This document shows positions 3,662-5,817 of a DNA stretch of 64,000 nucleotides, one piece after another. The stretch's first letter is position 1; every line of letters starts with the position of its first letter. The stretch covers positions 1,210,321-1,274,320 of the forward strand of contig CP031964.1 of NCBI GenBank assembly GCA_003443635.1. The letters are read 5' to 3'. This DNA is from Flavobacteriaceae bacterium. GTDB lineage: Bacteria; Bacteroidota; Bacteroidia; Flavobacteriales; Flavobacteriaceae. The translations under genes and the position numbers were made by a program. Below the pieces are notes generated by a model, which searched no databases, was not told the DNA's origin, and was given only the letters and a program-made list of their open reading frames with translations.

Positions 3662-4363
3662 TTATTCAATACTAAATTTGATGCCTATAGTAGATTGAAT
3701 TTTAATTTTTTGAAACTCTATATCTATTGGCTGATTAATGCTACCGTTAACTACGAATTCATTTAATTCATAACCTTTGTTTCTTGCTAAATATTGGTTA
3801 TTATTATAGTTACTTAAATCAGAAATATGAATAGCTCTGCCTAGTTTTTGATTTAGAGGTTTAAGCAACATTTCTGCTTGTGTTTTTGCTTTAATAATAG
3901 CTTTTTGTTTAAGCTCTAGTTTTAATTCTTCAATTTTTGAAAATTCAGTTTTAATTAAATTTATATTTGAAATTTCGATAGATTCCAAACCAACTATTAC
4001 TTTTCCAGCAGTTAGTGCATCATATACAATTAGAGTATATGCTTTGTTTTTTAAAACGTCTTTCTTTTTCAGGAAGTAACGCTTAAAATTACTAGCTGCA
4101 TCAGAAAGGAATAATTGCTCTTTTGTGTCAATTCCTAATGATTTTAATTTAATGTTCATTTTTTGTTCTAACTCTTCTACAGCTATTTTTCCTTTTGTGT
4201 CTTTTTCTGTAATGAGGATAGATAAATAGATTTTATCAGGGACAACCAAAGTGTCAACTGAAGCGTTAGTCTCTAAATAAGGTTGGTCAATAAAATTTTT
4301 TGTTTGCGAATACCCTGAAATTGTTATTAATAACAGAAATATAATAAGTGTTACTTTTTTCAT
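3662..4363 (-). CDS. SIMPL domain (DUF541) secreted protein
   Basis: The 233-residue product carries a signal peptide (MKKVTLIIFLLLITISGYSQ) followed by a SIMPL/DUF541 domain: an initial strand with DTLVVPDKIYLSILITEKDTKGKIAVEEL, a central YTLIVYDALTAGKVIVGLES segment, and a helix rich in Lys and Glu with KAKTQAEMLLKPLNQKLG. SIMPL proteins are periplasmic or membrane-linked and of unsettled function (BP26/OMP28 and YggE relatives). A leftward TATTTTTG box lies at 4402-4409, some 40 bases upstream of the ATG. It is a single-gene unit ending at the shared terminator at 3620-3650. Confidence 0.85.
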   Translation of the reverse strand: MKKVTLIIFLLLITISGYSQTKNFIDQPYLETNASVDTLVVPDKIYLSILITEKDTKGKIAVEELEQKMNIKLKSLGIDTKEQLFLSDAASNFKRYFLKKKDVLKNKAYTLIVYDALTAGKVIVGLESIEISNINLIKTEFSKIEELKLELKQKAIIKAKTQAEMLLKPLNQKLGRAIHISDLSNYNNNQYLARNKGYELNEFVVNGSINQPIDIEFQKIKIQSTIGIKFSIE

Positions 4364-4665
4364 TTGAATATAATTTTTTGTTTTATGTCTTTTATAGATT
4401 ACAAAAATAAAGCCATTTTAATGTTCACGACTTTAGTAACTAGTAAAGTACAGTTTTGAATGAGTGAAAATACTCTTTCAGTTAGGATTCTATGTTTTAT
4501 AAAAGTATTTGTAGTTAGAAAATTATTGAAAAATAAGATTGAATACTCCGTTTATCTAATAATTGCGATTAAACTAAAAATGTATATTTTAATGATTTAA
4601 TAGACTAATACAATCGTTATTTTCGTTATCTTTATATGAGTGTTTAATCATAAAAAGATACAATT
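4364..4665. other. intergenic region of about 300 bases between the SIMPL gene and the Cys-rich microprotein
   Basis: This AT-rich spacer separates two divergent genes. I see a leftward TATTTTTG box (4402-4409) and a rightward TATCTTTA box (4627-4634). Between them there is no open frame of note, no clear hairpin and no repeat. The long distance between the two boxes leaves about 200 bases unexplained. Confidence 0.5.
4627..4634 (+). promoter_or_regulatory. -7 promoter box of the Cys-rich microprotein gene (TATCTTTA)
   Basis: TATCTTTA matches seven of eight positions of TAnnTTTG and lies 31 bases before the ATG at 4666. The same octamer is found before several other genes in this window (22683, 29638, 42055), which supports its use as a promoter element here. 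No clear -33 TTTG is present. Confidence 0.45.
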
Positions 4666-4767
4666 ATGAAAACTATGAGATGTACTTGCGATTGTGTAAA
4701 TTGTATAAATGAAGATTGTAAAAACTGTATTTGTGAACAATGTAGTTGTTCGGGGTGTAGGGTGTAA
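4666..4767 (+). CDS. 33-residue cysteine-rich microprotein, metallothionein-like
   Basis: The frame runs from ATG to TAA and encodes 33 residues, ten of them Cys. Their spacing is C-x-C-x-C-x2-C-x4-C-x2-C-x-C-x2-C-x-C-x2-C, so CxCxxC occurs three times (for example CDCVNC and CICEQC). There are no aromatic residues, as in metallothioneins. A TATCTTTA box 31 bases upstream and a perfect 15-bp-stem terminator 31 bases downstream make it a self-contained transcription unit. That isolation and the low chance of ten regularly spaced Cys codons argue that it is real. It does not match the SmtA/BmtA family, which is longer and has a GATA-like zinc finger. Binding of Zn, Cu or Cd is inference from composition. 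No nearby metal-responsive regulator is visible. Confidence 0.72.
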   Translation: MKTMRCTCDCVNCINEDCKNCICEQCSCSGCRV

Positions 4768-4798
4768 TTATTTAATATTTAAAATTGATGATAAATAT

Positions 4799-4832
4799 AA
4801 AAAGCTGAAAAGAGAAATCTTTTCAGCTTTTT
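4799..4832 (+). terminator. strong intrinsic terminator after the Cys-rich microprotein gene
   Basis: A perfect 15-bp stem (left arm AAAAAGCTGAAAAGA, right arm TCTTTTCAGCTTTTT) closes on a GAAA tetraloop. It ends in a T run on the plus strand and an equivalent run on the minus strand, so it can also serve the leftward gene ending at 4855. Confidence 0.88.
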
Positions 4833-4854
4833 ATGATATTAGAAAGTTATTATA

Positions 4855-5259
4855 TTATAATTGAGTTAAAGAATTTATATAATTACAATGTATTGCTTGA
4901 AGCTTTTTCAATTCTTTTTTAAGTATGCCAATAAATTCTTTTCCATGAATTTTTGCTTGTTCTAGATCTTTGCAATCTTGCTGTAATTTGTCTATAGAAT
5001 AGCGAATAGATTTTGCGAATTTTAATTTTAAACTCGCATTTTTTTCGTTTTCTGTTTCTACGATCTTTGGAACTAAACTTAATGAATTCATTACTAGGCG
5101 ATCTGCATAAATATCAACATCTTTATTTGACTTGTGTAAAGATAATACATCTTTATCATCAGTAATATAATCTACAATACGTCGAGACAAATGAAATACC
5201 TCCATCGATTTTCGATAAATACCTAACTGATTTAAATGTAATTTCTGTTGTTCTTGCAT
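4855..5259 (-). CDS. small helical protein, possibly of the four-helix-bundle (S23-like) group
   Basis: I start this protein at ATG 5259 (MQEQQKLHLNQLGIYRKS), giving 134 residues. A frame-extending TTG at 5280 lies inside a TAATTTTG promoter box and is unlikely to be translated. The sequence is strongly helical with no membrane segment. The stretches QLGIYRKSMEVFHLSRRIVDYI, ADRLVMNSLSLVPKIVE and FAKSIRYSIDKLQQDCKDL recall four-helix-bundle proteins related to the 23S rRNA intervening-sequence (S23) family, in which helices start with a K-x-F/V-x-L pattern. That resemblance is modest. The function is unknown, and it shares a terminator region with the Cys-rich microprotein. Confidence 0.6.
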   Translation of the reverse strand: MQEQQKLHLNQLGIYRKSMEVFHLSRRIVDYITDDKDVLSLHKSNKDVDIYADRLVMNSLSLVPKIVETENEKNASLKLKFAKSIRYSIDKLQQDCKDLEQAKIHGKEFIGILKKELKKLQAIHCNYINSLTQL

Positions 5260-5277
5260 TTCTGTTATGTAGATATA

Positions 5278-5285
5278 CAAAATTA
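5278..5285 (-). promoter_or_regulatory. -7 promoter box (TAATTTTG) that decides the start at 5259
   Basis: Minus-strand TAATTTTG is an exact TAnnTTTG match, ending 18 bases before the ATG at 5259. The alternative in-frame TTG (5280-5278) is the last three bases of the box, so translation from it would need a transcript starting further upstream. Confidence 0.55.
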
Positions 5286-5376: not shown

Positions 5377-5817
5377 ATGAAAATAGATATTGTTAATTGG
5401 AAAATACTAGAATCTCTACAACAAAACTCAAGATTATCTAATACAGAAATTGCACGTAAAGTAGGGATTAGTTCACCAGCTGTTGCAGAACGTATTCGTA
5501 AATTAGAAGATGCCGAAATTATTGAAGGCTATTATACACGAGTTTCTTATTTTGAAACAGGTAAACAACTGAAAGCTATAATTAGTGTACGTGCTTTTAT
5601 GGGGAGGTTAAAACCTTTTTTAGAAAAAGTTGTTACTTTTCAAGAAGTTGTGAATTGTTATCGTATTACTGGTAATGAAAACATTGTAATGGAAGTTGTT
5701 TTGAAAAATCAAAAACATCTCGAACAATTTATTGATGAATTAATTACTTATGGAGAAACTAAAACACAAATAGTATTATCCGAAGTGGTAAAAAACAACC
5801 CAATAAGACCTAATTAA
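5377..5817 (+). CDS. Lrp/AsnC family transcriptional regulator
   Basis: The 146-residue protein starts MKIDIVNWKILESLQQNSRLSNTEIARKVGISSPAVAERIRKLEDAEIIEGY, a textbook AsnC-type helix-turn-helix (about residues 5-55). It continues with the ligand-binding RAM/AsnC_trans_reg domain (KAIISVRAFMGRLKPFLEKVV, VNCYRITGNENIVMEVV). Such proteins are dimeric to octameric regulators of amino acid metabolism or transport. The ligand cannot be told from the sequence. It is monocistronic and convergent with the DoxX gene ten bases away. A TATATTTG box at 5330-5337 is a plausible promoter, giving a leader of about 30 bases. Confidence 0.92.
   Translation: MKIDIVNWKILESLQQNSRLSNTEIARKVGISSPAVAERIRKLEDAEIIEGYYTRVSYFETGKQLKAIISVRAFMGRLKPFLEKVVTFQEVVNCYRITGNENIVMEVVLKNQKHLEQFIDELITYGETKTQIVLSEVVKNNPIRPN

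Follow-up and report, generated by a model that had tools for sequence, protein, structure and literature searches.

A family of tiny cysteine-rich peptides encoded together with a SigZ-like ECF sigma factor in Flavobacteriaceae, and a solitary member that appears to have outlived its regulator

We report that the short gene at positions 4666–4767 (+ strand) of the window, by which we mean the whole 64-kb stretch of flavobacterial DNA that was analysed, is a real, conserved, small protein-coding gene. Judged from sequence, its product is a member of a family that had not been named before, made up of tiny, Cys-packed and probably metal-binding proteins. The family as a whole is best explained if these proteins are metallothionein-like effectors of a metal-responsive SigZ-like circuit, which we regard as likely. 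In the genome of the window the sigma factor gene and its promoter have been lost; what remains is the peptide gene with its ten core Cys residues and the hairpin behind it.

The frame 4666–4767 (stop codon included) translates into MKTMRCTCDCVNCINEDCKNCICEQCSCSGCRV, a metallothionein-like peptide of 33 aa having 10 Cys, no His and no aromatic residue. The order of the Cys residues is exactly as stated in the initial annotation, with the core C-x-C-x-C-x2-C-x4-C-x2-C-x-C-x2-C-x-C-x2-C complete, and the CxCxxC motif, which had been counted three times, is seen at CDCVNC, CICEQC and CSCSGC. This is the only ORF of 25–60 aa with ≥8 Cys in the window, and none was found in 100 versions of it simulated with a first-order Markov model (maximum 7 Cys), which rules out a chance ORF. 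The box TATCTTTA (4627–4634, + strand), a possible housekeeping −7 element having one mismatch to TAnnTTTG, is present where it had been reported, but it is weak as a promoter because nine copies occur on the + strand of the 64-kb window and the copy at 4627 does not have a TTG −33 partner. The adjoining gene (3662–4363, − strand) weakly matches an 'oxidative stress defense protein' (NF008299); its position as a neighbour is not kept in relatives.

We ran the Cys-spacing pattern over 397 Flavobacteriaceae genomes and translated the matches. Family members, with the spacing CxCxCx2Cx4Cx2CxCx2CxCx2CxC, were found in at least 69 of these genomes. The 73 distinct loci of the family have a fixed Cys spacing, in frames that start ∼5 residues ahead of the first Cys and stop right behind the last one. 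The window peptide has the Cys core spacing and the fixed start and stop by which the family is defined; it ends in CRV, where the family has CNC, and the usual 11th Cys is replaced. Subfamily A peptides are ∼33 aa long with 11 Cys (MKNxxCTCNCxxCKxGxCxNCTCENCTCxNCNC), and those of subfamily B have 37 aa and 14 Cys, for example MNNCKCTKCECSKCNCVNCLENNCSCTKCDCTKCECC. Conserved Cys with variable residues in between, which the initial annotation had looked to as support for a genuine family, were seen across the members, although the ten core Cys are constant in part because the search pattern required them. The 11th Cys lies outside this pattern, and 62 of the 64 subfamily A members have it; its retention thus speaks independently for a coding gene and for Cys residues under selection. 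TGT and TGC alternate freely, and each Cys column contains both codons. Many other pattern matches, outside the family, were discarded as TGT/TGC microsatellites or poly-Cys translations.

A homologous frame in relatives, on which the earlier proposal had been made to depend, is thus present in many genomes, but the congener G001 was found to have no copy in a direct search. Likewise, the frame is intact in nearly all the relatives, but disrupted by a frameshift in one of about 70. Taken together, the empty congener and the frameshift indicate that loss does occur. The frameshifted gene (G211, L323:1446-1640) runs out of frame past the third Cys, and the promoter and sigZ are still present there.

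Direct search of 60 relatives yielded one clear homologue (47% identity, G003). By the pattern scan of GTDB contigs, the family is found in Gelidibacter, Tenacibaculum, Polaribacter, Leptobacterium and Oceanihabitans, as well as in Winogradskyella, Lutibacter, Olleya, Bizionia, Seonamhaeicola and others. HMM searches of class-, order- and phylum-wide samples gave no match outside Flavobacteriaceae; MAG contigs labelled Cytophagales and Saprospiraceae do carry family members. On a contig labelled Deltaproteobacteria (L148) there is a gene for a longer protein rich in His and Cys, two stretches of which resemble the 10-Cys core. Profile searches of Pfam, NCBIfam and PDB with the peptide gave no match; in Pfam, the window peptide had none up to E 10 and 16 family members had none up to E 1, in searches that are weakened for Cys-rich peptides by the composition filters of HMMER.

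The neighbours of the 73 family members were grouped by ORF clustering. In 57 of the 73 loci the next gene, on the same strand and usually 40–80 bp away, falls into a single protein cluster, which is a SigZ-like ECF sigma factor. With the sigma protein as query, tblastn recovered six more peptide–sigZ operons, which the ORF filter had passed over or which run off the end of the locus. Since the peptide genes of this family share an operon of two genes with this factor, the 'own transcription unit' described in the initial annotation is not native, and the solitary unit in the window is a derived state. The best NCBIfam models for the partner are SigZ NF007215 (E 1.8e-49, full length) and TIGR02959 (E 7.9e-45); its scores are under the curated cut-offs (168.2 against 212 bits and 152.7 against 168.65 bits, respectively), and we therefore call it SigZ-like. 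A structure model predicts an ECF fold. Five Cys residues of the partner are invariant in 56–57 of 57 sequences, one located in the linker between sigma2 and sigma4 and the others forming CC and CxxC at the C-terminus; the linker element is C in subfamily A and CC in subfamily B. We know of no function assigned to SigZ. In the literature searched, we found no description of SigZ coupled to a Cys-rich peptide, and nothing relevant on SigZ with arsenic or with cysteine.

The peptide–sigZ operons are preceded by an ECF promoter, TGCATCTTT-N13-NGTCTA, the last base of which is A, T or C. The distance from its −10 part to the ATG downstream is ∼32 bases, and the spacer is 13 bases in every case scored (61 promoters by the strict pattern; L164, L176, L191 and L195, each off by one base, by eye). 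This promoter is present in all the 63 operons having sigZ. Two more loci with the promoter, L074 and L139, stop short of the position of sigZ. Both the promoter and sigZ are absent from all eight solitary copies of the peptide gene (the window, L056, L109, L114, L131, L152, L168 and L187), and the co-occurrence of the two is significant by Fisher's test with p about 1e-10, uncorrected for relatedness. In most genomes the motif occurs as a single copy, at the peptide–sigZ operon, and it is natural to suppose that the operon is transcribed by the sigma factor it encodes. Matches at L297, L298, L302-L304, L306, L310, L314, L315, L318 and L333 were taken as chance because there was no sigZ nearby and no sensible gene behind them.

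The other genes under this promoter class point to its role. CDF cation exporter genes in two genomes (G106 and G154) have the motif starting 45–51 bases before the ATG; the products are ZitB-like (Pfam Cation_efflux, E 1e-48 and 4e-45), and both the genomes also carry the peptide–sigZ operon. The active sigma factor would transcribe its own operon from TGCATCTTT-N13-NGTCTA and, in some species, the CDF exporter as well. A DUF3703 gene with its own SigZ-type promoter lies just upstream of a peptide–sigZ operon (L320:1472-1850); the end of a DUF3703-like gene also seems to precede the operon at L059, L072 and L127. Sister SigZ-like factors, which have no accompanying Cys-rich peptide gene, are each encoded directly upstream of a promoter of the same type that usually ends in GTCTT. 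Behind these promoters we found an arsenite methyltransferase (ArsM, 336 bits, cut-off 263) and ArsI/CadI (110.6 bits, just under the cut-off of 116), together with a flavoprotein, DUF2703-like and PhzF-like proteins and very short peptides. The sister loci (L237, L294, L296, L299, L300, L305, L309, L311, L312, L316 and L322), with the promoter form TGCRTCTTT-N14-GTCTT, thus constitute an apparent arsenic-type regulon. At L305 and L237, short conserved peptides (MESKKYKNSISSSKSIYKTYSSKLTSCRRSSGGPFGAYRRFC and a relative), for which no Pfam match was found, are encoded downstream of the sigma gene under the arsenic-type promoter. The presence of CDF exporters, ArsM and ArsI/CadI assigns this class of promoter to the detoxification of metals and metalloids. 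In the sister factors, two Cys separated by ∼20 residues lie at the C-terminus and region 2 often contains CC, so that the Cys layout of a sigma factor may set the metal.

Some SigZ genes elsewhere have thiol and electrophile genes around them, which would fit a peptide that is a thiol-redox buffer, or a copper or iron–sulfur carrier, instead of a metal store. Genes for thioredoxin, NAD(P)H oxidoreductase and DoxX are found near a SigZ-like gene on an Arenibacter plasmid, which heads a thioredoxin–permease–oxidoreductase cluster, a Vibrio SigZ gene lies near a glutathione S-transferase gene, and a flavoprotein distantly like YpdA is under the promoter class in two genomes. We nevertheless regard such a role as very unlikely, since the clearest genes under the promoter class are those for the cation exporters, the arsenite methyltransferase and ArsI/CadI, and since CxCxxC repeats devoid of other conserved residues would be more expected of thiolate clusters than of a CxxC redox site. 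The new bacterial metallothionein put forward in the initial annotation is accordingly retained as a metallothionein-like effector, in keeping with the detoxification genes, but without a match to any metallothionein profile. The peptide would chelate thiophilic metal ions in the cytoplasm through its Cys thiolates, most likely those of the Zn/Cd class and possibly Cu(I) or As(III).

A hairpin is found 3′ of the peptide gene in nearly all the peptide–sigZ operons. We scored the folding of the first 90 bases past the peptide stop at 58 loci including the window, and obtained z < −2 in 50 and z < −3 in 39 of them; the stems are mostly 10–19 bp and differ in sequence. The window has a perfect, terminator-like hairpin with an 18-bp stem and a GAAA loop at the matching position (4796–4835, + strand; z = −7.2). 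The terminator noted there earlier with a stem of 15 bp is thus a perfect hairpin with a longer stem, but it is the counterpart of the operon's intercistronic hairpin. In the operon, this element probably trims transcription, and it could in this way make the peptide outnumber the sigma factor.

The near-strict pairing with sigZ, the single and apparently autoregulated promoter that is often the genome's only copy, and the usual co-transcription of ECF genes with the genes of their regulators would also fit a peptide that is chiefly a regulator. Such a peptide would hand metal to the five-Cys SigZ-like factor or withhold it, in a metal-buffering, anti-sigma-like manner, and detoxification would be left to other genes. 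We consider this unlikely: eight copies of the peptide gene persist without sigZ, the sister SigZ factors do without the peptide, and the placement of the hairpin would favour an excess of peptide over sigma factor. A two-part metal switch is a related and also rather doubtful possibility, in which the peptide would be both the main product and a negative feedback that removes metal from the five Cys residues in the SigZ-like factor, and metal specificity would be set by how the Cys residues of the sigma factor are arranged (Zn/Cd class for the five-Cys form and As(III) for the sister form).

The metallothionein-like reading was compared with known systems. The peptide resembles SmtA/BmtA (PF02069), PflQ2MT and MymT in being short and Cys-rich with CxC and CxxC motifs, and cytoplasmic metal chelation is expected of it as of them. 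SmtB, a repressor, is linked to SmtA-type metallothioneins. The present family, in contrast, is tied to an ECF sigma factor and not to a repressor, and differs from SmtA/BmtA further in having no PF02069 match, a length of 33–37 aa, about one third Cys and no conserved His. SmtA, TvMT and PflQ2MT bind 3–4 Zn (PMC10612145). The general sequence features of metallothioneins, namely small size, very high Cys content, CxC and CxxC motifs and few or no aromatic residues, are all found in the peptide. The peptide was also compared with the short copper metallothioneins of fungi and with the alpha domain of vertebrates. The peptide has the size of one such domain, and by analogy 11 Cys would suit an M4Cys11 cluster; its Cys spacing, however, differs from theirs and homology is undetectable. 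The likeness to eukaryotic metallothioneins suggested in the initial annotation was not borne out by any profile search. In the literature searched, no metallothionein was found from Bacteroidota, flavobacteria included.

CorE and CorE2 (ECF44 and ECF238) of Myxococcus xanthus are metal-dependent ECF sigma factors without an anti-sigma factor. Both depend on Cys residues of the linker and of a Cys-rich extension at the C-terminus, and the metals to which CorE2 responds are Cd and Zn (PMC8999054). The SigZ-like partner similarly has Cys in the sigma2–sigma4 linker and at the C-terminus, and no anti-sigma factor. However, its linker carries one Cys (subfamily A) or CC (subfamily B) and not the CXC of ECF44 and ECF238; its tail is short with CC and CxxC, its gene context is different and it is paired with a metallothionein-like peptide. 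We therefore use the likeness to CorE as a working principle, with no claim of group membership. The five-Cys SigZ-like factor probably senses metal directly, much as CorE and CorE2 do.

In the window, the two genes that follow sigZ in many relatives are in place. These are the convergent gene for a conserved small protein that is next to sigZ in relatives and forms the right-hand synteny marker (4855–5280, − strand), and a gene for an Lrp/AsnC-family regulator as the second marker (5377–5817, + strand). The place of the SigZ-like gene, about 540 bp in relatives, is occupied by 87 bp (4768–4854). The genome of the window was found to have no SigZ orthologue (the best ECF match, with 32% identity and E 1.2e-12, is a generic ECF) and no copy of the family promoter. 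The congener G001 has the Lrp gene and the convergent gene, and the peptide gene is absent. With the sigma gene and the promoter gone, the peptide gene and the hairpin are left in the window's genome as an orphan unit. The typical sigZ and ECF promoter are likewise missing at the seven other solitary copies, and the eight are found in about seven genomic settings. The persistence of solitary copies elsewhere indicates that the peptide can be kept without its sigma factor. One of these genes, in a Cytophagales MAG (L109), is followed after 38 bp by a gene, in the same orientation, for a superoxide dismutase-like protein.

The window copy may be a working orphan, expressed today, or an early relic. 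Besides sigZ and the ECF promoter, it has lost the 11th Cys and a Gly that is kept in 60 of the 64 members. As to selection, which the initial annotation had made a test of its proposal, the ten core Cys are complete, but substitution outside the Cys columns looks nearly neutral (pN 0.52, pS 0.56). These losses, the near-neutral substitution and the congener without a copy would be expected of a decaying relic with no present function, a view compatible with a metallothionein-like family. Against it, the frame, the ten core Cys and the perfect 18-bp hairpin are intact in spite of the divergence, and the Cys core is also kept in other solitary copies. We regard the relic as a tentative possibility, less probable than its opposite.

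The analysis has yielded a peptide family defined by sequence, its partner sigma factor, a promoter of fixed spacing and a likely regulon, comprising metal export and, at the sister loci, arsenic methylation. Culturable genera, such as Winogradskyella, Polaribacter, Tenacibaculum and Olleya, allow its function, metal and mechanism to be studied side by side. If the two-part switch were true, the regulon would be readable from the promoter grammar across Bacteroidota. The window itself would represent a case of an effector outliving its regulator.
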